Of a DNA stretch of 64,000 nucleotides, positions 21,910-62,791 are shown one piece after another. The translations under genes were made by a program, and so were the position numbers. Each line of letters begins with the position of its first letter. Position 1 is the first letter of the stretch. The stretch is taken from contig JAJPJK010000002.1 in assembly GCA_021324265.1 (NCBI GenBank), positions 1 to 64,000 of the forward strand, written 5' to 3'. The notes under the pieces were generated by a model. The model saw only the letters and a program-made list of their open reading frames with translations, was not told where the DNA came from and ran no database searches. Source of the DNA: Thermoproteota archaeon. Its GTDB lineage: Archaea; Thermoproteota; Thermoprotei; Gearchaeales; Gearchaeaceae.

Positions 21910-23622
21910 TTAATATCCAGGGATATCCATTTTTGGTAGAGCTTTTATATAGTTTTCCTCAATCTCTTTTGCAAACTCTTTATAATCCCTTATAGTAATT
22001 ATTGCTGGCATTTTGATAGCTTCTCCAAACACTAGAGCCTCTCTTCTCTTTAGGCTTTCTACCACAGGTAAAAAGAGGTGTGAGTATTTCAAACCTTTTG
22101 TTGAAGCTTCAATGTCTACTTCGGTTGTAAGAGAAAAGATAAAAGAATTCCATAACATACCCATAACATCTTCACTTATCTGTGAAGGCCTTTGATCGAT
22201 TATGCAAAGTATTATGCCTCTCTTCCTTAGCTCTCTTGCAATTTCTCCAAAAGCCGTTTTATAATATAATTTTCCAGAAAGGAATTTATGAGCTTCTTCT
22301 AAAAAAATCACGATTTTGTATTTAAGTTGCCTGTTACTCATGATTTCGTTTATGGCCTTTTGCCATATTTTCTTTGAAAGTAAATGAGCTATAAGCGTAT
22401 ACGCCCGTGGGTCATCTCCATATCTACCAAAACTTATTATGACGCTTCGCTCACCATAAAATAATTCATTCACTATTTCGCTTATCGTGTCCTTTTTATC
22501 TATGGCGATGAATTCATATCTCCTCATTGAGCTAAGCTTACCTTTACCTGCCCTGAAAGAAGCGAGTGCACCAGTACCTATGTCTTTGATTTTTTCTTCA
22601 ATTCTATTTTCAATTATTTTCAATTCCTTTTCTAAGTCCTTTCTTTCATCAAGATATCCAAGCAAATATAGGATCCAAGCATGCTTTTTTAAACTATCAT
22701 CTAGTTGCTGAACTCGTTCAAAAACATCATTGATCATCCTTTTGTATTGATGAAGATAATCTAAGAAATTTTGGGTGAGATCTAAATTTTCTTTTAATAT
22801 TTCTAAATCTTCAACATCGAGCTCTCTAGGATCAATATTGAATTCTTCCAATCTAAATTCCTTCGATAAAAGTATATCTGGCGTATATATTTTGAAATCG
22901 TTCTTAAAAAGTAGACCAACTCCGTCTGCGTAGTCATTTCCATGCTGATCCTTTACTTTAAGACCATATTCGCTGTGCATATCGAAGATCAAAAGCTTTA
23001 TTGGTTTATCGAGTTTATTCTTTTTGTTGGAAATGATTATAAGAGAAGCTATGATATTTCCCAAATGAGTTTTCCCTGTTCCTGATTTACCAAAAATTCC
23101 AAAAGAGCCTCTTGTGAGCAGATCGATGTTTATGGGTATCATGACTTTTAGTTCTGAATCCTTCACTGGATGTTTTGAAAAACCAATTCCCCAATTCACT
23201 TTTTCATCGAGATTCCCATAAAAGGTTTCAATGTCCTCCTTTTTTGGTGGAACAACTTTTCCAGCATGAACTGGTATAGTATCTACTTCTTCAACACCAT
23301 ATTTGCTTGTTTGGGCAAGAGGTATTAATCTCATTGATGTCGATAGCTTTTTCGTTGCGCTCAAGCTTTTTAATGCTACATCACCTATGTTCTTTGCTTC
23401 GCTATTTTCTGAGAGATATTTTGCCGCGTTTGATGCTCTTTCTGAACCTGCAGAGTGAAAAACTTCCGATATTATCGACAAGTATTTTCTTTTCTTTCCT
23501 TCAATGATCGCTATAGAGTTCGTGGCTATATCTTCAGTAGCTTCGTAATCACTCAGTATTGACTCTATACCTGTGCTTGTGCTAGCATTTGTAACATATC
23601 CTAATTCTTTTGTTTCACTCAT
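21910..23622 (-). CDS. herA: HerA-type bipolar DNA helicase/translocase
   Basis: A 570-residue HerA/FtsK-superfamily ATPase. The N-terminal 100 residues look like a HAS-barrel ('ELGYVTNASTSTGIESIL'). Walker A is 'GKSGTGKT' near residue 180, Walker B 'KIVIFLEEAHKFL', followed by the arginine-finger region and 'VFGEAIKMPAIITI'. A helical insertion (about 265-370) separates the core strands. In archaea HerA rings load on NurA to resect double-strand break ends after Mre11-Rad50 action. It is third of three overlapping genes (nurA, unknown, herA), 8-base overlap with the preceding one. Confidence 0.9.
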   Translation of the reverse strand: MSETKELGYVTNASTSTGIESILSDYEATEDIATNSIAIIEGKKRKYLSIISEVFHSAGSERASNAAKYLSENSEAKNIGDVALKSLSATKKLSTSMRLIPLAQTSKYGVEEVDTIPVHAGKVVPPKKEDIETFYGNLDEKVNWGIGFSKHPVKDSELKVMIPINIDLLTRGSFGIFGKSGTGKTHLGNIIASLIIISNKKNKLDKPIKLLIFDMHSEYGLKVKDQHGNDYADGVGLLFKNDFKIYTPDILLSKEFRLEEFNIDPRELDVEDLEILKENLDLTQNFLDYLHQYKRMINDVFERVQQLDDSLKKHAWILYLLGYLDERKDLEKELKIIENRIEEKIKDIGTGALASFRAGKGKLSSMRRYEFIAIDKKDTISEIVNELFYGERSVIISFGRYGDDPRAYTLIAHLLSKKIWQKAINEIMSNRQLKYKIVIFLEEAHKFLSGKLYYKTAFGEIARELRKRGIILCIIDQRPSQISEDVMGMLWNSFIFSLTTEVDIEASTKGLKYSHLFLPVVESLKRREALVFGEAIKMPAIITIRDYKEFAKEIEENYIKALPKMDIPGY

Positions 23623-24268
23623 ATTTCAGTAGCCTGCCCAGTGATATGTTGACTTGTTCAGCCAGATGGTCGAATTGATTTTCCAATAAATCCTTCTGCA
23701 TACCGTTTAAGATATCTATTAGCTCCTCCTTTGAAAATATTTCCTTCAACCTTTTAAAAAAGGATTCTAGAAAGTATCCAAATAAACTCCTTTCTTCATT
23801 TGGCATTGCATTATATATAAGCGGGAGGTATTTTAGAGAAGGTTCCTTATTAAGGTGGATTTCTCTTATAATTTCTTTCTCAGGCAAAAAGACGAGGTCA
23901 TGAATCAAGGGGATCTTCTCAGGTCTTCCTTGATATATTTCATTTCCTCTAATGTAACCAACAGTAACTGCTTCACATACCGCTCTATATTTATCCATTA
24001 TATCTCTGTATTCCTTGGCAAAATCCTCCCTTTTCCTTTTGAAAGGCTTAGGAATATCGCTAATTGGGACGATGGGTTTGATGGATAAAGAAATAACAAC
24101 ACCCATTATTAGCTCACTTCCAGCAAGCACCAAAACAAAAGAGGGATACTCAGGTATCTTTTCCAAATGATATGTTTGAAATATGAACTTATTGTGGTAA
24201 GATTCAACTATTTCTCCTATAGCATTTTCTATCTCCTTTGATTTGAAAATTTCTAGCCAATCTGTCAT
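23615..24268 (-). CDS. Unknown protein encoded between nurA and herA, possible HAS-barrel-like
   Basis: A 217-residue protein not recognised with certainty. The N-terminal half is strand-rich ('FVLVLAGSELIMGVVISLSI', 'AVTVGYIRGNEIYQG', 'IPLIHDLVFLPEKEIIREIH'), which loosely resembles the beta-barrel that precedes the HerA ATPase core. The C-terminal 80 residues are helical ('FLESFFKRLKEIFSKEELI'). It overlaps nurA by 4 bases upstream and herA by 8 bases downstream, so it is translationally coupled to both and likely works with the HerA-NurA complex. The barrel resemblance is my inference from pattern only. Confidence 0.75.
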   Translation of the reverse strand: MTDWLEIFKSKEIENAIGEIVESYHNKFIFQTYHLEKIPEYPSFVLVLAGSELIMGVVISLSIKPIVPISDIPKPFKRKREDFAKEYRDIMDKYRAVCEAVTVGYIRGNEIYQGRPEKIPLIHDLVFLPEKEIIREIHLNKEPSLKYLPLIYNAMPNEERSLFGYFLESFFKRLKEIFSKEELIDILNGMQKDLLENQFDHLAEQVNISLGRLLKYE

Positions 24269-25380
24269 ATTAAACTGGATAACTTTCTTTCTAGTTTTTT
24301 ACTCACCATGATCGGCGATATGCCTGGAAGTTGATTGCTCAATAAGCTTAAAATAAATCTCCTATCTTGTTCGCTTAGATAAGCCTGTTCATGAGCTCGA
24401 GCCATGCAATATGGATAGCCATCTCCTATAATACTTTGCAGAAGAACTATCTTATGTATTTCATCAATTCTTCCTTTTAAATCACCTAGAAATTCCACTC
24501 TTAGGACGTTTCCATCAAATATCTTGAGATAAAATGCATATACTTCTCTATTTATTAGGGAAGTGGGATGGTTGTAAATCTTCATAAGCGGGCTTCTTTG
24601 ACCTGGCTTAAGTATTCTATCAAAAAGTTGTTTATCTGTAACCTTTACATCATTCAAGTTTGAGACTTTGCTGAGAAAGTTTACGAAAGATCTGCTCATG
24701 CTATAAAAAATTGCAATAGGTATAGTATTGCTATTAATCATTTCCTCTAAGTTTTGAAGAAGTTTATTCATCAATTTCTTTATCACGTCATCTCTTGCAC
24801 TAGAAAGAAAACCCGAGGATATACTTTCGTCTAGAAACACATATGCCCCACTAAGATCTTGTTTTTCTAGCAATTCACTGAAAACTTGGCTATAGCAATC
24901 TAACCGCATATATTGAAGGATCCAAGAAGGTAGCTTTGTTTCTTCTATTAAGTCTTCGATTTGCTTTTTTGTGAAAAATAGTGGTATGCTATTCTCGAGA
25001 TATTCTCCATGAAAATAATCGTAGAAAAAGTATCCGGTATTAACTAATATAAAATAGGGTGTGATGTGATGAGAAAACATTTCGCTAGTATCGAACGCAA
25101 TAACCTTTGAACCCTTTATTTTTTCGAATGCCCAACGATTATTCATGAGTCCTTGTTTTATATCTTCAACTTCATCATAGTTTTTACAATCCAAATTCTC
25201 TACTGGTAATGCTATTTCTTGCTTGCTTTTTGTATCGAGCCAACTGTCCAGCTTATTTTGTTCAAGGCCTAAATATGCATTCCTTAATCTTTCTATAATC
25301 GACTCCTCTATCTTAAGTTCTTCTATAAGATATGAAGAAGCTGTCTTCAGAATTCTTATTGTCAAATCATGATTTAACAT
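24265..25380 (-). CDS. nurA: NurA 5'-3' nuclease
   Basis: A 371-residue protein with the NurA-domain acidic residues: 'IAFDTSEMF', 'FLDESISS' and, near the end, 'GYPYCMARAHEQAYLS', the usual C-terminal motif. NurA is a toroidal manganese-dependent nuclease that partners HerA to produce 3' overhangs at DNA breaks. The track's first codon is TTG at 25383; the ATG at 25380 is the more likely start. It leads the nurA-unknown-herA overlapping set, 26 bases after the THEP1 gene. Confidence 0.88.
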   Translation of the reverse strand: MLNHDLTIRILKTASSYLIEELKIEESIIERLRNAYLGLEQNKLDSWLDTKSKQEIALPVENLDCKNYDEVEDIKQGLMNNRWAFEKIKGSKVIAFDTSEMFSHHITPYFILVNTGYFFYDYFHGEYLENSIPLFFTKKQIEDLIEETKLPSWILQYMRLDCYSQVFSELLEKQDLSGAYVFLDESISSGFLSSARDDVIKKLMNKLLQNLEEMINSNTIPIAIFYSMSRSFVNFLSKVSNLNDVKVTDKQLFDRILKPGQRSPLMKIYNHPTSLINREVYAFYLKIFDGNVLRVEFLGDLKGRIDEIHKIVLLQSIIGDGYPYCMARAHEQAYLSEQDRRFILSLLSNQLPGISPIMVSKKLERKLSSLI

Positions 25381-25406
25381 CAATATGATTTAGGAATTTG
25401 AATATA

Positions 25407-25946
25407 TTATACTGTTTTCTCCAAAGAGGACTTTATTTCTGCATACAAATTTTCAAATAAGTTGTTCCAATTATCTCTTGTTAGGATAAATAATCGCCTT
25501 TCATTTGGAGGGATCAAGTTAGCGAAATTTATATGTTTTCTATGAAGAGTTGCGAGGAGATGTCTATCAGATTTGAGTATTTGAATTATTAAATTCTTGA
25601 ACTTTTCGCTGGACAGTTCCATGCTACCTATTTCATCGCATATTATAAGACTTCTTGAATCCATCGCTCTTTCAAGAGTTTTAACTGCGAAGTCATCAAT
25701 TCCTCTTATATTTATGTGATAACTTCCTAGCATCGGGCCTCCAAAATCCTCTTTCTTAGAAGCCAAAATTTCTTTTCTTCCTGTTTTCAAGTCATTTATA
25801 ATGAAGCCCATTCTAACACCATGCTCTCTTATCTCGATGGTTACAAATCCATCGCAACTTATGTTACTTGATTTTAAGCGTTCGAAAAGTTTCAAAATCA
25901 ATGTTGTTTTTCCTGTGCCTGGCTCACCCGTTACTAACCATTTCAT
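25407..25946 (-). CDS. THEP1-family nucleoside triphosphatase
   Basis: A 179-residue P-loop NTPase of the THEP1/COG1618 family. Walker A is 'GEPGTGKTT', Walker B 'IICDEIGSMEL', and 'GFVTIEIREHGVRMGF' is a family hallmark. Characterised thermophilic homologues hydrolyse ATP, GTP and other NTPs with modest rates; the cellular role is unknown. The GTG start in the track is possible, but the ATG at 25946 forms an ATGA overlap with the trpS stop and is preferred. Confidence 0.87.
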   Translation of the reverse strand: MKWLVTGEPGTGKTTLILKLFERLKSSNISCDGFVTIEIREHGVRMGFIINDLKTGRKEILASKKEDFGGPMLGSYHINIRGIDDFAVKTLERAMDSRSLIICDEIGSMELSSEKFKNLIIQILKSDRHLLATLHRKHINFANLIPPNERRLFILTRDNWNNLFENLYAEIKSSLEKTV

Positions 25947-27091
25947 TCCATTTCCCACATTTGTTTAGCGAGCTTGCCTTCATATTTGAAGACATTTACG
26001 AGTTCTTTAGCATTTTCTCTTTTTTCCCTGAATACCGTTAAGAATTTATTAATTTTCTCCACGAGTATCTGTTTCAATTCACCAGAAAGCATTTTACCAC
26101 TGCGATAATCCTCTTCAATTTTCTTTATTTTTGCATCATCTTCTTCGAAGAAGTAATATAACCATTGAAAGCTTACGTCCACTTCTGGATTTCCTCCAAG
26201 TTTACGGTGTAATTCTATCGTAGCTTGCCCACCTGAGTATGCATGTTTCATTATTTTACTACTAACAGTCTTTTCATCATCTTTTAGAAATATGCATGTC
26301 TCAGGCTTGGAAGTACTCATTTTTTCCCATATTCCAGTAAGCGCAGGTATGAGCTTAAGATGAAGGGCGGCAGTTTTATAATAGCCCATACCTTCAGCTA
26401 TATCGCGCTGAATTCTCCAGTAAGGATCCTGATCTATGCCTGCAGGTATGAGGCATCTTCTTTTCTCAAAGAAAGTAGGGGCCATTTGTATTGCAGGATA
26501 AAAGATAATGCCTATATTGGTTGAATTTTCGAAACCGAATACTGCCTTTGCCAAAGAAAAGTTTATCTTTTTCGCTATTCTCAAAGCTTTGGGATAGAGC
26601 TTTGAAATGTATTCAGTGTCTTGAAAGATGAAAGTCCTGTTTTCATCGAAGCCCACTGCTATTATATCGAGGATATTATCATATGCCCATTTCTTTGTAG
26701 CATCTTCATAAGTGAGATCATCTCTTTGGAGGTATCTCTCTTCATCTGCGATCATAATGTAGACATTGACCTTGAATTTTTCCTGGAGCCATTTTGTTAA
26801 GTAAAAAGGTAATATGTGGCCGATATGCATAGGCCCTCCAGGCGCTCTTCCTGTATAGAGGAAAAATCCTTGACCACTCTTTATGTCCTTGAGGATGAGT
26901 TCGAAGTCTCTATGGGAAAACACTATGTTTCTTCTAAAGAAGATATGCATTTCACCTGCAAGAGAAGCAAGTTCATTCTTTAGTGTCTCATCGAATGCTT
27001 TTGTCCCGAATTGTTCAATTAATTTATTGTAATCTATTTTACCTTTGGCTTCCCAAGGAGTAATGCTAAAGTCCTCCACAATATAGACCAC
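25943..27091 (-). CDS. trpS: Tryptophanyl-tRNA synthetase
   Basis: A 382-residue class I synthetase of archaeal/eukaryotic type, charging tRNA-Trp. The HIGH element is 'PMHIGH' (87-92) and the KMSKS loop reads 'KMSTS'. 'AGIDQDPYWRIQRD' is the typical TrpRS dimer and active-site segment. Start is GTG at 27091, three bases after the inositol-phosphatase-like gene's stop, and the end overlaps the THEP1 start by 4 bases. Confidence 0.95.
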   Translation of the reverse strand: MVYIVEDFSITPWEAKGKIDYNKLIEQFGTKAFDETLKNELASLAGEMHIFFRRNIVFSHRDFELILKDIKSGQGFFLYTGRAPGGPMHIGHILPFYLTKWLQEKFKVNVYIMIADEERYLQRDDLTYEDATKKWAYDNILDIIAVGFDENRTFIFQDTEYISKLYPKALRIAKKINFSLAKAVFGFENSTNIGIIFYPAIQMAPTFFEKRRCLIPAGIDQDPYWRIQRDIAEGMGYYKTAALHLKLIPALTGIWEKMSTSKPETCIFLKDDEKTVSSKIMKHAYSGGQATIELHRKLGGNPEVDVSFQWLYYFFEEDDAKIKKIEEDYRSGKMLSGELKQILVEKINKFLTVFREKRENAKELVNVFKYEGKLAKQMWEME

Positions 27092-48165: not shown

Positions 48166-49194
48166 ATGAAAGTAGTTAGACTTTACAGACATGGAGGTGT
48201 AGAAAACCTAAAGCTAGAAGAGGACAGAATACCTGCACCAAAGGAAAATGAGGTCCTTGTGCGTATTCGTGCCTGTTCTATGAACAGATTGGATATATGG
48301 ACAAGGGTAGGCTATCCTGGCGTAAATATTCCTCTACCCATCATATTAGGGAGCGATATCGCAGGCTCTGTTGAAGATATGGGAAGCGAGGTTAGGAATT
48401 TCTCTAAAGGCGATAAAGTACTTCTCTATCCTGCCCTTGTTTGCAATAGGTGTGAGTACTGTATTGCAGGTGAACATTCGATGTGCGACGATCTTAGAAT
48501 ATTAGGTCATCTCGTTGATGGAGGTTATAGAGAATATATCGCAGTACCCGAGGATATATTATATAAAATTGATTCTTCAAGAAGCTTTGAAGAAGCCTCC
48601 TGTTTACCGGTAACCGGTACAACAGCATGGAGGGCTATATTTACCAAAGCTTCTCCAAAGCCTGGCGATGTCGCCTTTGTTTGGGGCGCAGGCAGCGGCA
48701 CAGGAATTATGCTCATACAACTTCTCAAAAATTTGGGTTGCAAGGTAATTTCTACAGCTGGGAGTGAAGAAAAGGAGAAGCGTGCTTATTCATTGGGTTG
48801 TGACTTAGTGATAAACTACAAGAAAGAAAATGTTGTAACGAGGGTTCAAGAATTCACAAATGGAAAGGGGGTAGATGTAGTGATAGATAGTGTCGGTTCT
48901 TCAACTTTTGAAACTAGCATCAAAATATGCAAGAAAGGAGGGAAACTTGTTTTCTTTGGCGCTACGAGCGGTGATCTTGTATCATACGGAGTAAGAATAG
49001 CCTATCGCAGACAGATAACTCTACTGGGCTCATATTTGGGTTCAAAATCTGAGTTTGCGAGGATGCTGAAGCTTTTCAATGAAGGTAAGCTTAAACCTGT
49101 CATAGATTCGATTTTTAAGCTTGATGAAGTTCAAAAAGCGCATCAGAGAATGGAGCAAAATCTCCATTTCGGTAAGATTGTCATCATACCTTAA
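48166..49194 (+). CDS. Zinc-dependent alcohol dehydrogenase (MDR family)
   Basis: A 342-residue medium-chain dehydrogenase/reductase. The structural zinc lobe has Cys in 'CNRCEYCIAGEHSMCDD'. The cofactor motif is 'WGAGSGTGIMLIQLLKNLGC'. In the catalytic zone 'ILGSDIAGSVEDMG' lacks the usual GHE glutamate set, so the catalytic zinc may be absent or differently bound. Substrate unknown. Its stop shares a base with the start of the THUMP gene. Confidence 0.9.
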   Translation: MKVVRLYRHGGVENLKLEEDRIPAPKENEVLVRIRACSMNRLDIWTRVGYPGVNIPLPIILGSDIAGSVEDMGSEVRNFSKGDKVLLYPALVCNRCEYCIAGEHSMCDDLRILGHLVDGGYREYIAVPEDILYKIDSSRSFEEASCLPVTGTTAWRAIFTKASPKPGDVAFVWGAGSGTGIMLIQLLKNLGCKVISTAGSEEKEKRAYSLGCDLVINYKKENVVTRVQEFTNGKGVDVVIDSVGSSTFETSIKICKKGGKLVFFGATSGDLVSYGVRIAYRRQITLLGSYLGSKSEFARMLKLFNEGKLKPVIDSIFKLDEVQKAHQRMEQNLHFGKIVIIP

Positions 49195-49679
49195 TGAAAC
49201 TTCTTGTTACATGCAAACCTCTTAAGGAAAAGAAAGCGCTGGAGGAAATTTTGAGTTTAATTTTTCAGATCGATGCACATGCCAGAGTAGATGAACATCA
49301 GATAAAGCCAGGCCTTTTTACTGTGGAAACAAAAGCAAAAAAAGAAGAAATAGCAAGGATTCTACTAAAAGCAAGACGCTCGTATATAAAAAAAGTTATT
49401 CCTGTCGAGATGATTACTCGTGATTTAATTGCGTTAAAAGAGCTTATTAAGAAAATCGAAAAGGGGAAAAGGATAGCTGTTAGGTGCTCACATAGGTTTG
49501 GAGTAAGCTCAAAGAATGTAGAAATTCTTTTAGGCAATATTGCGAAATCTGAAGGTCTTAATATAGATCTTGAAAATCCCGATTATGTACTGATCATCGA
49601 GCCTGTTCGTGATCTCTATTATGCCTCTATCCTTTCATTTCTGGAATATAAGATTCTGACAGGTAGAAAATCGATATAA
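49194..49679 (+). CDS. THUMP-domain protein
   Basis: A 161-residue protein formed almost entirely of a THUMP-like RNA-binding domain: 'GLFTVETKAKKEEIARIL', 'KGKRIAVRCSHRFGVSSKNV' and 'DLENPDYVLIIEPVRDLYYA' follow the THUMP pattern. No catalytic domain is attached, so it may act as a tRNA-binding partner, like Tan1-type proteins that assist tRNA acetylation. It begins on the last base of the alcohol dehydrogenase gene. Confidence 0.8.
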   Translation: MKLLVTCKPLKEKKALEEILSLIFQIDAHARVDEHQIKPGLFTVETKAKKEEIARILLKARRSYIKKVIPVEMITRDLIALKELIKKIEKGKRIAVRCSHRFGVSSKNVEILLGNIAKSEGLNIDLENPDYVLIIEPVRDLYYASILSFLEYKILTGRKSI

Positions 49680-49704
49680 ACCATTGATAATAATTAATAA
49701 CTAG

Positions 49705-50898
49705 ATGTCCGAAAATGATTTTGAAAGATATTTTCGATCATCTTATCTATTCAAAGATGAAAGTAAGTTATTCCCTGAGCATGTTCCTGCTTATCTTCCT
49801 TTTAGGGAAGAGCAAATCAAAAGACTGATATTCTTTTTTAGGGGGTTGGTAGAACCAGAAAATTTTGTTTTTTACAGGGCGATATGCTACGGTCCCGCGG
49901 GTACAGGTAAGACAGCTGTGGCGAAATTCTTCGGGAAGCTTATAATCGAGGAAGCAAAAAAGAAAGGTACAAATTTACGCTTTATACACATAAACTGTCA
50001 TCTTGAAAGGACTTATTTCATGATAGTAAGTAAGATAGCAGAAAGTCTCATAGCAGGCATTCCAAAGCGAGGCTTTTCTCCTAAACAATATCTTGCATGG
50101 ATTTTGGAATATCTGGAGGATGAAAACATTAAGTTATTGATTTGCCTCGATGAAGCAGACTATATCATAAGAAATGATCCTGAAATTTTATATGATCTAA
50201 CTAGATCCTCTGAGCTCGATTCAGCTAAAGTAAGGTTGAATTTATTGATCATTTTAAGAGATATATCGATTCTCTATAATCTAGACGAAAGTGTGCTTAG
50301 TACTCTTCAAAGAAATCTGAATCAATTCAATCCTTATACTTATTTCGAAATAAAGGAAATATTAAAGGAAAGGATAGGTGAGGCCTTTCTGCCTAATACA
50401 GTAGAAGAAGGTGTTATAGATAGTATAGCAATGAAAGCAGGCGTCGACAGGGGTGGAAGAGGCGATGCAAGGTTTGCACTAGAGCTCATTTGGAGGGCAG
50501 GTAAAATTGCGGAAATAGAAAACTCGCGCAGAGTAAATATTGAACATCTGAGGAAGGCCATGAGTGAAATATATCCAGGCATAACGAGCGAAGTATTCGA
50601 TACGTTGCTTGAAGAGGAAAAAATTTTGTTGTTATCTATTTGCAGGGCATTAAGAGAGGAAAAAGCTGCAATGGTGAGCACGAGGTCTGTGAAGGAATAT
50701 TATGACTTGATTTGCGAAAAGCTAAAGAGGAAGCCGAAAGGATATACTCAATTTTGGAGCTATATACAAAGCCTTAGGAATAAAAACTTAATTAACGTTT
50801 CTGTGATGAATGAAAAAAGGGGCAGAAGAGGCTACATTTCAATAGACTTTCCAATAGATAGCTTGGAGAATAAACTGCTTGAGTATGTCAAAGCCTAG
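49705..50898 (+). CDS. cdc6: Orc1/Cdc6 replication initiator
   Basis: A 397-residue AAA+ origin-binding protein. Walker A 'YGPAGTGKTAVAKF', Walker B 'ICLDEADYI', sensor 1 and 2 ('GDARFALELIWRAG') and a C-terminal winged-helix domain ('VKEYYDLICEKLKRKPKGY') are present. Only 25 bases separate it from the THUMP gene, and I see no origin-recognition repeats there. It opens the replication island and overlaps the next winged-helix gene. Confidence 0.92.
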   Translation: MSENDFERYFRSSYLFKDESKLFPEHVPAYLPFREEQIKRLIFFFRGLVEPENFVFYRAICYGPAGTGKTAVAKFFGKLIIEEAKKKGTNLRFIHINCHLERTYFMIVSKIAESLIAGIPKRGFSPKQYLAWILEYLEDENIKLLICLDEADYIIRNDPEILYDLTRSSELDSAKVRLNLLIILRDISILYNLDESVLSTLQRNLNQFNPYTYFEIKEILKERIGEAFLPNTVEEGVIDSIAMKAGVDRGGRGDARFALELIWRAGKIAEIENSRRVNIEHLRKAMSEIYPGITSEVFDTLLEEEKILLLSICRALREEKAAMVSTRSVKEYYDLICEKLKRKPKGYTQFWSYIQSLRNKNLINVSVMNEKRGRRGYISIDFPIDSLENKLLEYVKA

Positions 50899-51160
50899 TA
50901 GAGTAGAGGAATTGCTTGGTAGCAGATGGAAGGTTAGGATGATCAAGGAGCTAGTAAATGAAAATGAAATAAACATTAGCGCACTTGTTAAAAGGTCGCA
51001 TTCATTTTTCAGAACGGCAACAGAGTATATCGAGTTTCTAAAGGAAATAGGTCTTGTTAAAGAAAAGAGATTTGGGAAGGTTCGAATTGTGGTAGTGAAT
51101 AGGAATTCTGAATATTATTTTCTCCTAAAAAGGCTCATTGAAGTTATCGAAACAAAATAG
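50885..51160 (+). CDS. Winged-helix DNA-binding protein
   Basis: A 91-residue protein with one winged helix-turn-helix: 'RWKVRMIKELVNENEINISA' (helices 1-2), 'SFFRTATEYIEFLKEIGLVK' (recognition helix and wing). The ATG at 50885 overlaps the cdc6 stop by 14 bases. Likely a transcriptional regulator; the overlap suggests it may control or accompany cdc6 expression. Target unknown. Confidence 0.8.
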   Translation: MSKPSRVEELLGSRWKVRMIKELVNENEINISALVKRSHSFFRTATEYIEFLKEIGLVKEKRFGKVRIVVVNRNSEYYFLLKRLIEVIETK

Positions 51161-51199
51161 AAAGTTTATTTCAATTTAATTGGAATAAAATAGGGAGTA

Positions 51200-52168
51200 A
51201 TGAGTGAAGAATTACTCTGGATAGAAAAGTATCGTCCTAAGACCTTAGATGAGATTGTTAATCAGGAAGACATTATAAGAAGCTTGAAGAGGCTTATAGA
51301 AGAAAAGAATATGCCGCATCTACTTTTCACTGGACCTCCTGGTGTTGGGAAGACAGCTACCGCGTTGGCTTTCGTTCGAGAATTATATGGAGAGGAATGG
51401 AGGAATAATGTGCTTGAATTAAATGCAAGCGATGAAAGGGGTATTGATACGATAAGAGAAAAGATTAGGGAAAGATTCGCTAAAACTCTTCCTCTTGGAG
51501 ATATACCTTTTAAGATCGTCATCTTAGATGAGAGCGATGCAATGACAAGTGAAGCGCAAACAGCATTGAGGAGAATTATGGAGATTTATGCTAGGAATAT
51601 TCGCTTTATACTTACTTGTAACTATAGCAACCGAATCATTGAACCTATACAATCGAGAACAGTTGTTCTCAGATTTCTACCGCTTGAAAAGGAGCATGTG
51701 ATTAAAAGGCTAAATTATATCGCAAATAACGAGAAGGTGAAAATAGATGAACAAGCATTGGAAACAATTTTTGATCTCAGTAACGGTGATCTTCGAAGAG
51801 CAATCAATCTGCTTCAAAGTGCTTCATTGTTTGGTGAGGTCACTTCTGAAGTTGTATATAAAGTTGCGGGTGCTGTAAAGCCAAGGGAAGTGAAGGCGAT
51901 TTTCGACAGCCTAATAAAAGGAAATTTTGAAAGCGCAAGGGATGCGGTGCTGAAGATGCTTTTCAATGATGGCATTTCAGGGACGGAAATAATATACTAT
52001 TTGTATAGGGAAGTCTATAGGCTTAATGTTCCTGATGAATGTAAACTGAATCTCATTGAAGTCCTAGGCGAATATGAATATAGAATCCTTGAAGGATCAA
52101 GTGAAGAGATACAGCTCAATTCAATGCTCGCGAAGATGCAGTTAATTCTCAAAAATTATTCTAAATGA
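51200..52168 (+). CDS. rfcS: Replication factor C small subunit
   Basis: A 322-residue clamp-loader AAA+ subunit. RFC boxes are clear: 'WIEKYRPKTLDEIV' (II), 'LLFTGPPGVGKTATALA' (III), 'NASDERG' (IV), 'VILDESDAMT' (V) and the 'SRTVVLRF' stretch (VII) with SRT rather than the usual SRC. It works with RfcL to load PCNA. ATGA overlap with rfcL. The AT-rich 'tttcaatttaattggaa' upstream holds its promoter. Confidence 0.95.
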   Translation: MSEELLWIEKYRPKTLDEIVNQEDIIRSLKRLIEEKNMPHLLFTGPPGVGKTATALAFVRELYGEEWRNNVLELNASDERGIDTIREKIRERFAKTLPLGDIPFKIVILDESDAMTSEAQTALRRIMEIYARNIRFILTCNYSNRIIEPIQSRTVVLRFLPLEKEHVIKRLNYIANNEKVKIDEQALETIFDLSNGDLRRAINLLQSASLFGEVTSEVVYKVAGAVKPREVKAIFDSLIKGNFESARDAVLKMLFNDGISGTEIIYYLYREVYRLNVPDECKLNLIEVLGEYEYRILEGSSEEIQLNSMLAKMQLILKNYSK

Positions 52169-53430
52169 GCATAAAGAAGGAAGAAATATGGACGTTTAAG
52201 CATAGACCTAGGCGAGTTGAGGAAATTGTAGGTAATGATGAGGCTAAGAAGGAGTTTTTGGATTGGCTAGGGATCTGGATGAAAGGGAAGCCGCCAATAA
52301 AAAAAGCTGTATTGATTTATGGCCCACCAGGTGTTGGTAAGACACTTTTAGTCGAAGTTGCCGCAAGCCAATTTGATCTTGAACTTCATGAAGTGAATGC
52401 AGGAGATATCTATAGCTTGGAATTCATAAAGAAGGCTGCGCTCGAATCAAGTAAGGAGCTCAGTTTGGTGAATAAAATGAAAATTATAGTCGTAGATGAG
52501 CTGGATAGTATAGAAGGGCCAAAGGCCAATTATGTCCTTAATATTCTTATGGAATTAATTAATGAATCTAAGTTTCCTGTCGTTTTCATAGCCAACGATG
52601 GCTGGAAACCAATACTCTACCCTATAAGAAATGCATGTTTGATGATTGAGATGAAGCGACTTTCAAATAAGCTGATCGTTGGTTATCTTGCAAATATATG
52701 CAAAAAAGAAGGTTTGAAATATGAAGAGGAGGCTTTGAAAGTGATAGCTGAACGATCTGAAGGGGATATGAGGAGTGCGATCTTAGATCTGCAGTTTTGT
52801 TCAATATTTGGTAAAATAGGCGTGAAAGAAGTAAACATTGTATCTGCAAAAGACAGGCAAACTGATGTCTTCAGTGCGATAAGAAATGTTATTTATGCTC
52901 AAAGTTTCTTTTCTGCCAAGAGTGTGATCGATGAATTTCCATATGATCAGGATACATTGCTGCTATGGATTGAGGAGAACGTTTTTAGATTCTATACCAA
53001 TCCCCGTGATCTAGCTTTGGCATATGATCGATTGTCTAAGGCAGATATTTATAGAGCTAGAGCCAATAAGGAGAGATATTGGAGATTTATACTATATTTT
53101 TCTGATCTCATAACTGCTGGCGTAGCACTTTCTAAATCTCAAAGGCCTACCTATGCAAAGATGCAGTTTCCTCAAACTTTGCGGGTGCTATCTAGGCAAA
53201 GACAATCAAGAGAGATGCGAAACTATGTGTTGGAGAAGATCTCCAAGAGCAATCATCTCTCTTTAAGGAAAGCCCTGGATGAAATATTCTGGTTTCTTTT
53301 AGTAATGCTGAAAAATGAGGAATTTAAAAAACGGTTTGCTAAGAGGTATGAACTTGATGAAGATTTCATGAATTATCTCACAAACCTTGCTTCTAATATA
53401 GATGTGAAAATACAGTCAAGGTCTAAATAG
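52165..53430 (+). CDS. rfcL: Replication factor C large subunit
   Basis: A 421-residue clamp-loader subunit with Walker A 'YGPPGVGKTLLVEVA', Walker B 'VVDELDS' and sensor 'GDMRSAILDLQF'. The C-terminus ends in 'NYLTNLASNIDVKIQSRSK' with no recognisable PIP box of the QxxLxxFF kind that ends several archaeal RfcL proteins. Overlaps rfcS by 4 bases; 3' end overlaps the convergent AIR-synthase-like gene by 15 bases. Confidence 0.94.
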   Translation: MSIKKEEIWTFKHRPRRVEEIVGNDEAKKEFLDWLGIWMKGKPPIKKAVLIYGPPGVGKTLLVEVAASQFDLELHEVNAGDIYSLEFIKKAALESSKELSLVNKMKIIVVDELDSIEGPKANYVLNILMELINESKFPVVFIANDGWKPILYPIRNACLMIEMKRLSNKLIVGYLANICKKEGLKYEEEALKVIAERSEGDMRSAILDLQFCSIFGKIGVKEVNIVSAKDRQTDVFSAIRNVIYAQSFFSAKSVIDEFPYDQDTLLLWIEENVFRFYTNPRDLALAYDRLSKADIYRARANKERYWRFILYFSDLITAGVALSKSQRPTYAKMQFPQTLRVLSRQRQSREMRNYVLEKISKSNHLSLRKALDEIFWFLLVMLKNEEFKKRFAKRYELDEDFMNYLTNLASNIDVKIQSRSK

Positions 53431-54438
53431 TTTCCAAACCTCTTCTTCTTCACCTTCCTCTTCCAAATTCCTGGATTTTCCTTCCTTGTTTATTATTATC
53501 ATATTTCTTTCTCTTTTTAATGAACCAATTATTGACCAATTTTTTCCTTCTTCACTTAAAATTTTTTGAAGTAAATCTATCTTGTTTTTCACTACTACGC
53601 AAATCAAAGATCCAGAACTCAATGCCTTTAATGGGTTAAGATTTAATACATTGAAAATTTTCTCGGTAACATCGAGCTTGAAAATTTTTTCTTCCCATAC
53701 TTCGAAACCAGTTTCGAGGAAGTTACCCATTTCTTTTAGGGCTACAATTATTCCTCCTTCCGTAGGATCATGCGCATAAACAGCGATATTATTTTCGAAG
53801 ATTTTAATTCCTGGGTTGAAAACAGACAACTCGTTTAATAGTGATTTTGCTTTTCTTATATCCTCTTCGTTGATTTTCCCAAGAAGCAATTCTTCGAAGT
53901 CATTTGCGATTATAGCAGTTGCTTCTAAAGCTATTGGTTTTATTTGAACTATATAATAATTTTCAGGATTATTTTTAAGGTCTTTAATTTGTTTTATCCT
54001 CTCTTCGTAATTGCCAATAAGTTCACCGAGCATGAATGTAATAACGATTGGTTCTTTTACTGAAGGACTAAACTCAGTATGTCCTCCTACCAAGTTTATT
54101 TTGAATTCTCTAGCTTTATGTAAGATTTCTTGGTGCAGTATTGATAGGTCTTCTTTTTTGTAATGGGTCGGTAATATAATGCAAGTTAAAGCGAATTTCG
54201 GTCTAGCTCCCGCTGCGACTATATCATTACTCGCTATCGTGATTGAAAGGGCTCCGAGGTTTTTTCTTGCTCCAGTGATAGGATCAACGTGTACAGCAAT
54301 GACATTGCCAGTTCTAAGTATCGCTGCATCTGCTCCTATTCTCGGTCCTAGCAATACATTTTCATCGATATTGATTTGCTTAAGTAGGTTCTTCATTTCT
54401 TCTATTGTAAGTTTACCTATCTTCTTCTCAGAGACCAT
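53416..54438 (-). CDS. AIR synthase/HypE-related protein
   Basis: A 340-residue protein of the PurM/HypE/ThiL/SelD superfamily, ATP-dependent enzymes that activate amides or phosphorylate small molecules. 'RIGADAAILRTG' and 'AHDPTEGGIIVALKEMG' are the family signatures. It lacks hydrogenase neighbours, so HypE function is unlikely. The Glu-rich tail ('EEEGEEEEVW') is unusual. Divergent from gins23. Confidence 0.82.
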   Translation of the reverse strand: MVSEKKIGKLTIEEMKNLLKQINIDENVLLGPRIGADAAILRTGNVIAVHVDPITGARKNLGALSITIASNDIVAAGARPKFALTCIILPTHYKKEDLSILHQEILHKAREFKINLVGGHTEFSPSVKEPIVITFMLGELIGNYEERIKQIKDLKNNPENYYIVQIKPIALEATAIIANDFEELLLGKINEEDIRKAKSLLNELSVFNPGIKIFENNIAVYAHDPTEGGIIVALKEMGNFLETGFEVWEEKIFKLDVTEKIFNVLNLNPLKALSSGSLICVVVKNKIDLLQKILSEEGKNWSIIGSLKRERNMIIINKEGKSRNLEEEGEEEEVWKLFRP

Positions 54439-54475
54439 GACATGGTTTTTATTAATTAATTAATTAATAATTGGG
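54439..54475. promoter_or_regulatory. Divergent promoter with TTAA repeat, AIR-synthase-like gene / gins23
   Basis: A 37-base gap containing 'attaattaattaattaata' (54451-54469), an AATT/TTAA tetranucleotide run that can act as a TATA element for both directions. Length variation of this run could change promoter strength. Confidence 0.45.
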
Positions 54476-55015
54476 ATGGAGGAACTTTTGCTGGAAAGCT
54501 ATTTTAATTATGAAATGGCTAAAGTAAAGGTCAAAGTCATTCGCGATCACTCAGAGGTAAATTTTTTAGGTAACAGATTTGGCCCTTTTGTAAAAGGACA
54601 AGACGTAGAACTACCTAGAGCCTTGGCAAGATTGTTGGCAGATCAAGGCATAACTGAATATCCTTTCCCTACAATTTCGCTCGATGACATAAGGAAAAGA
54701 CATTATCAGGAAATTTCGAATAAAATCGAATTAAAAAAAATAGAAGATGACTTCTATCTTCAAGCAAAGGAACTTATTCTTCTAGCGCAGAAAAATGTCA
54801 TAAAAGATAGCCCTAGAGAAATAAAGAGATTATTGGATGAAATATGCTTGAAAAGGCTTGAGAAAATCTTCAGAAATGTCCTATATGTCGAGGATGTGAA
54901 GAAAATAAATCAACTCATGGCCTATGAGGAAAGATATCTATTCATGATTCTCCGCGATCTAGTGAAAAATTGGAGAGAAGACGTTTTAAATAATGCTTTC
55001 ATGAAAAAGATCTAA
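54476..55015 (+). CDS. gins23: GINS complex subunit Gins23
   Basis: A 179-residue GINS protein. The small B domain comes first ('GPFVKGQDVELPRALARLLA') and the helical A domain follows, the order seen in Gins23 (Psf2/3-like). GINS joins MCM and a GAN/Cdc45-like protein in the archaeal CMG helicase. It precedes mcm by two bases, the same gene pair as in Sulfolobus. Confidence 0.9.
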   Translation: MEELLLESYFNYEMAKVKVKVIRDHSEVNFLGNRFGPFVKGQDVELPRALARLLADQGITEYPFPTISLDDIRKRHYQEISNKIELKKIEDDFYLQAKELILLAQKNVIKDSPREIKRLLDEICLKRLEKIFRNVLYVEDVKKINQLMAYEERYLFMILRDLVKNWREDVLNNAFMKKI

Positions 55016-55017
55016 AA

Positions 55018-57054: not shown

Positions 57055-57055
57055 A

Positions 57056-59173: not shown

Positions 59174-59198
59174 TAATGCAATTAGAATTCTTTCATCA

Positions 59199-60365
59199 AT
59201 GGTTAGATTGATTCACACAGCGGATCTTCATTTGGGCATAGGTTTCGCTCAGATATCAAGCTCGGCAGACTTCGAGGAAAAACGTTTTAGAGATTTCATT
59301 TCGAACCTTGAATTCATAAAAAATTATGCGCTAAACAATAAAGCGGATTTTTTTGTGATAGCTGGTGATGTTTTTCATAATCCAAGGCCTAGCATTCAGG
59401 CATTTAACGAATTTTCTAGGATAGTAGGTGAGCTAATAAAGAATAAAGTACACGTACTCGTAGTTATTGGAAATCACGATAGCACGAAAACTCGGGAGGC
59501 CTTGAGCTACCTTAAGAGCTACGACAATTTGGGCGTAGATTACTTTCATCTCTTCGACACCGCACGTGCTGAAGTCATTGAAGCTAAAAGCACAGGCGAG
59601 AAGATAAAATTTATCGGTCTTCCTTATCCGCATTTCCAATCCAATTACTCATATAGCGATTTCGTGAATTTTTTCGAACAAAAGTTGAGTGAAATTACAA
59701 AGGACAATGAAGGTGATTTCAGCGTTATAATCGGCCATCTTTATGTCGAAGGAGGGAAATTGGGCTCTGAGCAAAGAATAGCATCTCTAAGAGATTACCC
59801 CATACCTCCAAGGATCTTCGAACCATATGACCTAACTTGTTTGGGCCATTTACACACGCCACAGAGGCTGGGCAGCAAATTATTCTATTCTGGTTCTATT
59901 GAAAGGGTTGATTTCGGTGAAGAAGGTGAGGAAAAAAGCTTTCTAGATATAAAATTGGGTTCTAAGCTTGAAGTGAACAAAGTATCTTTGAAGCTTAGAC
60001 CTATGAAGACATATAGCATAAATGCGACCTCGATGAGTCATTCCGATCTAATTAATGAGATCAAATCTCTAGTCCTTGAGGAGGGAGCGATAGTTAGAAT
60101 AAGGATACGCATTTCAAGTAATACAAGCTATCCTCCAGTTAATCAAATAGAGAGAATCCTCAAGGAACGTTACAGCGTTGCAGGGTTCAAAATCGATGTT
60201 GAAAGGGAGGAATACCAAGAAACTAGGCTACCATCAACGAATCTTGATTTTTATTCTTTTTTAAACGAATATTTGAAGGCAAGATACAAAGACAGGCCAA
60301 ATGACTTCTTGGTAAAAGTATTCTCAGAGGCTAAAAAAATAATAGATGAGGCTCAATCGCAATGA
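59199..60365 (+). CDS. mre11: Double-strand break nuclease Mre11
   Basis: A 388-residue calcineurin-like phosphoesterase. Metal-binding motifs I-V are present: 'HTADLHLG' (6-13), 'AGDVFH', 'GNHDS', 'GHLYVE' and 'GHLH'. It forms the Mre11-Rad50 end-processing complex. ATGA overlap with rad50. HerA-NurA are encoded 35 kb away rather than beside it. Confidence 0.95.
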   Translation: MVRLIHTADLHLGIGFAQISSSADFEEKRFRDFISNLEFIKNYALNNKADFFVIAGDVFHNPRPSIQAFNEFSRIVGELIKNKVHVLVVIGNHDSTKTREALSYLKSYDNLGVDYFHLFDTARAEVIEAKSTGEKIKFIGLPYPHFQSNYSYSDFVNFFEQKLSEITKDNEGDFSVIIGHLYVEGGKLGSEQRIASLRDYPIPPRIFEPYDLTCLGHLHTPQRLGSKLFYSGSIERVDFGEEGEEKSFLDIKLGSKLEVNKVSLKLRPMKTYSINATSMSHSDLINEIKSLVLEEGAIVRIRIRISSNTSYPPVNQIERILKERYSVAGFKIDVEREEYQETRLPSTNLDFYSFLNEYLKARYKDRPNDFLVKVFSEAKKIIDEAQSQ

Positions 60366-62791
60366 GAATACATAAGATTTCCCTCGATAATTTCGCAAGT
60401 TATGATAATGCAAGCCTAGATATTGACAAGTTAGGCTGCGTTATTAATGTATTCGGCGCCACAGGAGCTGGCAAGACAACATTGCTCGTGGATTCAGTAT
60501 CTTTTTGTCTTTTCGGTAAGGCATATGGTGAAGACAGGACTGGTTCTGAGAGGTTAATATTGAGGCCTAACAAGAAGCTTGGAAGAGCAGAATTGATATT
60601 CAGTTCAGGGGAAAAAAGATACAAAATCATAAGGGAAGTTGAGCTCGGCTCTGGTTCTAGGGCTTCTTCGAAGGTATTGCTATTGGAGATGATTGGGAAT
60701 GAATGGAGGAACAAGGCTACGGGTGTGGGTGCCGTTAAGGAATTCATCGACAAGATCATCAAGATCGATTATGATACCTTTCTCAAAACAGTAGCGATTA
60801 GACAAGGTGATGTTACATCCATCCTTGAGACCAAGCCCGCTGAAAGGAGAGAACTCTTTTTAAAAATGCTCAATCTCGACTTCAAAAAAGAAAGCGAAAT
60901 TGCAAAAAACAAGAGGGATAAAGTAAAGGAAGAGCTTTCAAAGATAAACGCATCCATAGAGGAGAAGAACAAAAGAGTTGAAGAAGAACCCAAGCTATTG
61001 AAGGAAATCGCAAACATTGATCAGCAAGTTCTGCTGCTCTATAGATACAAAGACACCAAGCAGAAGGAAAGGAATGATTTGGAACAAACATTGAAAAATA
61101 AGGAAGAGGAGTATCACAAGCTTTCTACAGAGTTGCGAATTTATGAGGAAAACATGAAAGAATATAGGAATAAGCTCGATAGAAGAACAAGATTAGAACA
61201 AGAGCTAAACAAGGCCTTATCTGAGGCGGAAAAGGAATCCAGCTACCAGAAAGAATATCAGGAGATTACTGAAAGGCTAAGAAGGCTGGACGAATTTAGA
61301 ATTTTGAGCAATGAAATTAGGCATAAAGAACAAGAGCTTAAAAATATTGAGAAACGCCTGCATGAGGTTGAAAAACAGTTGAAAGAAATTAAAGAAGCTG
61401 AAGAAAAACTGAGCGAAATCGAAGAAAAGAAGAAGGAATTGGCTCAGTTATCGAAGGATAGAGAGCACTTGGTCGAAATGATTAAAAGTATAATTCAGGC
61501 TATGGAGAGTTCCAAAGCCATGCTCGAACAGACTAGGAGATTGAAGGACACGTTGGAGAGTGCAAATCTAGAAAAAAGGCAATGCCCGCTATGCGGTTCA
61601 TATCTTTCTGAAGAGAAATTTGATGAACTTTTCCATCATTTCTTGGAGGATGAAAGGAAATATCAAGCTGAGCTGAATAGGAAAGAAAAGGAGAAGACAG
61701 ATTATGAAGCAAAGTTGAATAGTTTAGATAGCAAAATTTCTGATCTACAAAGAAAGGTAGCGGCAGAGGATGTATATAAAAGGTTCATTTCGAGGAAAAC
61801 TGAATTGCTCGAAGAAAATGAAGGTTTAAGAAAAGATCTTGAAAGGATGAGAAAGGAGCTAGAAGATCTGAAAGACAACAAATTATATAATGAATTTAGA
61901 AATCTTGATCCAGAAGAGACAAGGAGAAGGCTTGAAATCCAAAAGCGAGAAATCGAGCTTGTTCTTGAAAAAATTAAGAAAGAACGCGGGAAAATTGAAA
62001 CTCTTCGCTTGGAGATAGAGAATTTGGACAAAGAAATCAAGGATATGGAGTCTCTACTGGCAAAGAAGCCTGGTGAGGAGCTCATCAAAAGCTTGGAGGC
62101 TGCGATCAGTGAGCTCAGTCTGAGATCCAAGAGTTTAGATGAAGAAATAGAAAAGATAAATCATGAAATTGGTAGCCTTGAAGGCCGCAAGAGGAGCTTA
62201 AGTGAAGAAATTGAAAGAATTGGGATCATAAAAAAGGAAATTGAAGAACTAGTAATTAGGAAGAAGGAATACGAAGAAATGTTCGATATTTACAGAATTC
62301 TTTGTGATGATATTTTCAATGAAAGAGGATTTCCGCTTAGATTTCTGGATAGCTATCTGGAAGATTTGAATCACATCATCAATACAGAATATCTATCTCC
62401 TATCCTTAGAAATAAAAGGGTTGAAATTAAGCGTGTAGAGAACAATATTGAAATCAAGGTCTTCGATGACATTTATGAAAGGGATTTAGCAACCTATTCC
62501 GGAGGAGAAAAGACAGCGCTGGGTTTCGCAATAAGATTGGCGATCGCAAAAACACTTGCGCTGAGAAGAGGTATTTCTCCGAAATTTCTAATAATAGATG
62601 AGGGCTTTGGGCCGCTTAGCATTGAGATCAGAGATCTTTTGTTGAGGTCAATTTTGAATTTGAAATCCGAGTATGAGAAAATCTTTATAGTTTCACATCT
62701 TGAAGATATACAGGAAAATCCAATATTTGATTCGATTATAAGAATTTATAAAGATGAAAATAATATAAGTCATATTGAAATTTTAAAATAG
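60362..62791 (+). CDS. rad50: DNA repair ATPase Rad50
   Basis: An 809-residue SMC-like protein. Walker A 'GATGAGKTT' (32-40), Q-loop 'AIRQGD', then about 500 residues of coiled coil with the zinc hook Cys408/Cys411 ('CPLC') in the middle, the signature 'SGGEKTALGFAIRLA' and Walker B 'FLIIDEGFGPLS'. It tethers and remodels DNA ends with Mre11. Coils are shorter than in eukaryotic Rad50, as usual for archaea. Confidence 0.96.
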   Translation: MRIHKISLDNFASYDNASLDIDKLGCVINVFGATGAGKTTLLVDSVSFCLFGKAYGEDRTGSERLILRPNKKLGRAELIFSSGEKRYKIIREVELGSGSRASSKVLLLEMIGNEWRNKATGVGAVKEFIDKIIKIDYDTFLKTVAIRQGDVTSILETKPAERRELFLKMLNLDFKKESEIAKNKRDKVKEELSKINASIEEKNKRVEEEPKLLKEIANIDQQVLLLYRYKDTKQKERNDLEQTLKNKEEEYHKLSTELRIYEENMKEYRNKLDRRTRLEQELNKALSEAEKESSYQKEYQEITERLRRLDEFRILSNEIRHKEQELKNIEKRLHEVEKQLKEIKEAEEKLSEIEEKKKELAQLSKDREHLVEMIKSIIQAMESSKAMLEQTRRLKDTLESANLEKRQCPLCGSYLSEEKFDELFHHFLEDERKYQAELNRKEKEKTDYEAKLNSLDSKISDLQRKVAAEDVYKRFISRKTELLEENEGLRKDLERMRKELEDLKDNKLYNEFRNLDPEETRRRLEIQKREIELVLEKIKKERGKIETLRLEIENLDKEIKDMESLLAKKPGEELIKSLEAAISELSLRSKSLDEEIEKINHEIGSLEGRKRSLSEEIERIGIIKKEIEELVIRKKEYEEMFDIYRILCDDIFNERGFPLRFLDSYLEDLNHIINTEYLSPILRNKRVEIKRVENNIEIKVFDDIYERDLATYSGGEKTALGFAIRLAIAKTLALRRGISPKFLIIDEGFGPLSIEIRDLLLRSILNLKSEYEKIFIVSHLEDIQENPIFDSIIRIYKDENNISHIEILK

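Follow-up and report, generated by a model that had tools for sequence, protein, structure and literature searches.

A free-standing HAS-barrel protein encoded between nurA and herA is a candidate third component of the archaeal HerA-NurA end-resection machine

The known HerA-NurA complex contains six HerA and two NurA subunits, and NurA lies against the HAS-barrel side of HerA (PMC12977600, PMC9960219). The literature searched here treats HerA-NurA as a two-protein machine with the nuclease seated on this side of the HerA ring. The stretch of Thermoproteota DNA analysed in this work (64,000 nucleotides, referred to as the window) contains a third gene between nurA and herA, encoding a 217-residue protein denoted X, which raises the question of what X is and whether it belongs to the machine. 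All three genes are on the minus strand and, as the original prediction stated, the open reading frames are translated in the order nurA, X, herA, with overlaps read from the sequence of 4 bases (ATGA) between nurA and X and of 8 bases (ATGAGTGA) between X and herA. The features of the window discussed below are as follows.

25383-24265, minus strand: nurA, a nuclease of 372 residues (TTG start, with an ATG at 25380)
24268-23615, minus strand: X, 217 residues, a stand-alone HAS barrel followed by C-terminal helices
23852..24223, minus strand: HAS-barrel part of X (residues ~16-139), with its elements in the same order as in residues 8-135 of the partner HerA
23990..24031, minus strand: helix alpha1 of X (residues 80-93), aligned to the W76-Y95 region of Thermococcus HerA (TkHerA)
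23624..23828, minus strand: C-terminal helical part of X (helices 148-154, 157-177, 180-196 and 200-215 in the AlphaFold model)
23622-21910, minus strand: herA, a DNA-translocating ATPase of 570 residues with its own N-terminal HAS barrel (residues 8-135)
59199..62791, plus strand: mre11-rad50 pair, from open reading frames and translations, 35 kb from the X locus

Pfam matches identify both flanking genes, so that the locus encodes NurA and HerA together in an overlapping operon. NurA scores 45.1 bits against a cut-off of 21 (E 1.1e-11), and its residues Asp98, Ser100, Asp185 and Asp250 and an RAHE motif are invariant among nine X-adjacent NurAs (alignment A7). The HerA sequence matches the DUF87/HerA central domain (64.4 bits versus a cut-off of 23.2) and is remote from the NCBI-named HerA families, scoring no higher than 74 bits where the cut-offs are at least 800. 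A search of the window genome for a canonical HerA at E <= 1e-30 found none.

The window X sequence has no match in Pfam, NCBIfam, PHROGs, PADLOC, the sequences of the PDB or viral contigs. An AlphaFold model calculated with five homologues as input (pLDDT 84.5, pTM 0.82) comprises, by DSSP, strands at 16-23, 27-32, 44-49 and 52-65, helices at 80-91, strands at 94-107, 110-113 and 125-127, a helix at 131-139 and four further helices extending to residue 215, in agreement with the strand-rich N-terminal half and helical C-terminal half originally described. The helical insert lies between strands 4 and 5, as it does in the HerA N-terminal domain. In the window HerA model (pLDDT 86.9) the barrel elements are at residues 8-135, followed by the ATPase core, and the two barrel models agree element by element; in X the C-terminal helices occupy the position of this core. 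The best 50 matches of the X model to PDB structures (Foldseek) are all HerA-type ATPases, headed by HerA-DUF4297 (3.6e-8) and Thermococcus HerA-NurA (1.4e-7) and including Sulfolobus HerA (SsoHerA; 3.5e-6) and TdpA, and a comparison with viral proteins gave nothing below 0.001. The full-length HerA model matches TdpA, SsoHerA, SIR2-HerA and TkHerA best, with E-values down to 5e-25.

Profile comparison leads to the same family. A profile of 11 X sequences aligned with 23 HerA N-termini, which had been gathered with canonical HerA as the query and independently of X, at E 2.3e-9 (hhalign, probability 96), and a profile of 14 X sequences did so at E 9.5e-8, compared with 0.43 for a reversed control; an earlier canonical HerA set (E 1.6e-11) was circular, having been chosen through its matches to X, and was replaced by the independent one. 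Weak matches of the X profile in four further genomes (G054, G065, G076 and G392) proved to be HerA N-termini. The homologue from G556 exceeds the cut-off of the Pfam HAS-barrel family PF09378 (29.4 versus 25.2 bits), three other homologues match this family below the cut-off and the window X itself has no match to it. A joint alignment of X, SsoHerA and TkHerA is co-linear across the barrel. The C-terminal helical part has no family or PDB match; PDB hits of the X profile to designed helical repeats and the like cover only these helices (E >= 0.047) and were deemed to be chance, as was a Crocosphaera match covering 52 residues in a scan of named genomes.

On the basis of predicted structure, profile comparison and Pfam, X is a HerA-type HAS barrel that stands alone. 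X is not a HerA, since it has neither a P-loop nor a match to DUF87 or any other ATPase family. The profile-profile and structure searches that had been proposed for X alone thus returned the HAS barrel of HerA and no unrelated well-characterized family. The idea of a detached HAS-barrel-like clamp survives as regards the barrel; it does not as regards detachment, because the partner HerA retains a complete barrel and X is therefore an additional one. A simple recent duplication of the partner's domain is also unsupported, since the profile matches between X and partner HerA N-termini are weak to moderate (E 0.003 for the initial set of HerA N-termini; 9e-6 for the window type and 0.007 for the G202 type of HerA described below).

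Relatives of X were sought by protein and profile searches over the class and phylum of the window. Full-length homologues were found in G001, G003, G004, G048, G264, G289 and G202, and then in G532, G543 and G556. A tree of HerA ATPase cores separates the HerAs encoded beside X into a window-type clade and a G202-type clade, the latter being sister to HerAs of nurA-herA-mre11 operons that contain no X (support 99/97); a single clade of X-partner HerAs is rejected (p 0.0007; AU p 0.0002 with more rows). The X-adjacent NurAs form one group with moderate support (94/96), and placement of the G202-type NurA with the 'mid' NurAs of X-less loci is rejected (p 0.025 and 0.019). Addition of a divergent solo NurA from the window genome breaks this NurA clade, a single clade then being not rejected (p 0.21). 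X thus seems to be tied to NurA rather than to HerA. The descent evidence for this link is good but not final, since both trees contain long branches and the groups were picked after a first look. The divergent protein (397 residues; L143 4028-5221, minus strand, contig C20 of the window genome) is the third NurA-like protein of this genome, has neither herA nor X beside it and is placed near the X-type NurAs in the tree; a similar solo gene is present in G001 (contig C40, 30197-30847).

If X belongs to this type of NurA, then each such NurA should be accompanied by X. When 397 genomes were searched with the NurA profile, 11 had a match at E <= 1e-50, namely the eight of the sample already known to encode X together with G155, G246 and G160, which had given no hit to the X profile; the next NurA followed at 9e-21. 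All three of these genomes have a gene for a 211-215-residue protein between nurA and herA, in an operon of the order nurA-X-herA-mre11-rad50, and comparison with the profile of the other eleven X proteins (E 1.4e-16) identifies these proteins as X.

Including the window genome (G000) and these three, X is present in 14 genomes from several families and more than one class, with a steady length of 201-223 residues. The dN/dS ratio for the close homologue pair of G155 and G246 is 0.10 for X and 0.115 for NurA. X is a real gene, since it is kept in 14 genomes and its dN/dS ratio is low. Its homology to the first 140 residues of HerA, with the ATPase missing, could also be read as that of a decaying remnant of a duplicated HerA retained by chance beside the operon, but the taxonomic range, the uniform length, the dN/dS ratio and the blind prediction of X from NurA in three of three genomes make this explanation very improbable.

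The gene neighbourhoods are those of a regular operon member. The genome survey for the triplet, which the original prediction had suggested, finds X directly before herA in all 14 genomes and nurA directly upstream of X in 11 of them (G000, G001, G004, G264, G289, G202, G532, G556, G155, G246 and G160). In G543 the contig starts just before X, in G003 nurA lies ~2.5 kb past herA on the opposite strand, and in G048 an X-type nurA is on another contig (L142 3253-4437, plus strand, C101), apart from an X-herA-mre11-rad50 operon. These adjacencies, together with the HAS-barrel identity, support the earlier proposal of X as a candidate third subunit. Other HerA-like and NurA-like genes occur in nearly all of the X genomes tested, several of them as pairs without X. 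The window genome has a second herA-nurA pair of this kind (L015 6059-8669, minus strand, contig C4; 486 and 387 residues, herA first), as well as a 382-residue HerA-type ATPase lacking a HAS barrel whose gene overlaps that of a 175-residue sporulation-control-like protein (L014 8457-10129, plus strand, contig C15); a pair resembling the latter is found in G001 (contig C38). G543 has two herA-mre11 operons (L097 72-3630 and L079 108-4257, both plus strand), one with X and with its nurA side lost at the contig end, the other a nurA-herA-mre11 operon without X.

The position of the locus is kept between genomes of one family: the window (24265-27091) and the corresponding region of G001 (L010 8121-10987) share tryptophanyl-tRNA synthetase, a THEP1-like NTPase and nurA-X-herA in the same order. 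This conservation bears on the suggestion that the locus is an anti-phage HerA-nuclease system with X as its sensor or regulator. The window HerA does match PADLOC HerA models, and HerA-DUF4297 and SIR2-HerA are among the Foldseek matches; however, NurA and X both lack a PADLOC match, the operon partner is mre11-rad50 and the neighbours in the window are housekeeping genes such as that for the tRNA synthetase, and an anti-phage function is accordingly improbable.

The mre11 gene, often with rad50, is directly 3' of herA in nine other X genomes (G048, G289, G202, G543, G556, G155, G246, G160 and a second G532 piece; loci L011, L034, L036, L079, L080, L090, L139, L140 and L141), so that the gene order is often nurA-X-herA-mre11-rad50. 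The mre11-rad50 pair of the window belongs to a replication and repair cluster (49194-62791) which, as named from translations, also encodes an ORC/Cdc6-like ATPase, two replication factor C subunits, a GINS-like protein, MCM and a Hel308-like helicase. The proximity of mre11 could indicate that X is a structural adaptor, its barrel resting on the HerA crown and its helices recruiting Mre11-Rad50 or gripping DNA, and the classification of HAS-like barrels with DNA-binding small barrels in BrxHI (PMC12839542) is compatible with this. Yet loci without X also have mre11 behind herA (most of L052-L063), conservation within X is lowest in the C-terminal helices (-0.35 to 0.41, versus about 1.1 for the barrel), and X tracks NurA in a comparison that covered NurA and HerA. 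Such an adaptor role appears unlikely.

A more specific indication of function comes from the part of the barrel that contacts the nuclease in known complexes. In the Thermococcus HerA-NurA structure the HAS domain touches NurA through the alpha1 helices and the loops preceding them, with Trp76, Leu77, Asp91 and Tyr95 of TkHerA named for the contact (PMC12977600), and in Deinococcus the HerA barrels make the exit pore and bind NurA (PMC9960219). Across 12 genomes, alpha1 of X equals the remainder of its barrel in conservation (mean BLOSUM score 1.23 versus 1.12), whereas the same helix in the partner HerAs of these genomes is not conserved (-0.66 versus 0.90 for the barrel). In two sets of HerAs from loci without X the helix is near the barrel average (2.12 versus 2.32 and 0.28 versus 0.39). 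TkHerA Tyr95 corresponds to Tyr88 of X; among the first 11 homologues, three have Leu or Met at this position and one has Thr. The retention of alpha1 in X and not in the partner HerA suggests that X takes part in the docking of NurA. Taken with the NurA-linked descent, this is most simply read as NurA docking on X, with X in turn seated on HerA. The original alternative of a regulator of HerA-NurA loading is less favoured than a nuclease-docking adaptor, because X follows NurA and not one particular HerA.

The same two observations, a retained NurA-docking helix and descent with NurA, would also be expected of an antagonist or timer, that is, a decoy barrel holding NurA off HerA or DNA until Mre11-Rad50 has finished, with HerA assembly then displacing X. 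The X gene lies between nurA and herA and its product would therefore be made in step with theirs, and in Sulfolobus NurA is an assembly organizer that selects the HerA hexamer (PMC5715905), so that a competitor could time assembly. The lack of conservation of alpha1 in the partner HerA is nevertheless unexpected if HerA alone must dock NurA, and a fixed gene position between nurA and herA across wide divergence better suits a structural part. An antagonist is thus an unlikely reading, although the least unlikely of the alternatives to docking considered here.

With moderate confidence, X is probably the third component of the archaeal HerA-NurA end-resection machine and docks NurA onto HerA. 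It is a free-standing HAS barrel that would descend from the N-terminal domain of a HerA; in place of an ATPase core, whether since lost or absent from the outset, it has C-terminal helices. The most likely position for X is atop the barrel crown of the HerA hexamer, where it would offer the NurA dimer a docking surface; duplex DNA pumped by HerA would then pass through the HerA barrel ring and through X to reach NurA. Physical binding, stoichiometry, the route of the DNA and contact of NurA with X rather than with HerA are the parts of this arrangement that we infer. Points against docking on X include the complete barrel of the partner HerA, through which HerA might bind NurA on its own, the separation of nurA from X in G003 and G048, and the substitutions at Tyr88. 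More tentatively, and as a possibility somewhat short of probable, X may be an exchangeable coupler in a three-protein HerA-NurA system, in which the HerA motor was swapped while the nuclease side stayed constant, so that the NurA-X pair is found with two different HerAs.

The X locus resembles the HerA-NurA systems of Sulfolobus, Thermococcus and Deinococcus (PDB entries 4d2i and 9x1l) in that NurA and HerA are encoded together, usually with mre11-rad50, and in that HerA has a HAS barrel, a RecA core and a helix bundle. It differs from these two-protein systems in its third gene, whose product is a HAS barrel of a second kind, and in the unconserved docking helix of its HerA. The strand order of X is that of the HAS-barrel domain PF09378, but the barrel in HerA is fused to the ATPase core, whereas that of X stands alone and is followed by four helices. 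TdpA-TdpB, HerA-DUF4297 and SIR2-HerA likewise have a HerA-type ATPase ring that works with a partner enzyme, and both X and the window HerA have the HerAs of these systems among their top structural matches; the partner enzymes differ from the NurA of the X group, and the literature searched describes no barrel protein as a separate component of these systems. A third HerA-NurA component was not found in the open-access literature searched, a scope outside which the 2004 FtsK-HerA survey (doi 10.1093/nar/gkh828) falls. Both HerA-NurA and HAS barrels are established; what is probably new is an operon with a distinct HAS-barrel gene as its regular third member.

If the proposed role of X is correct, the coupling of a DNA pump to its nuclease would be a separable module, and an unrecognized component would be added to archaeal double-strand-break repair. 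X would also provide a handle on how HerA rings are matched to varied partner enzymes, those of anti-phage systems included.
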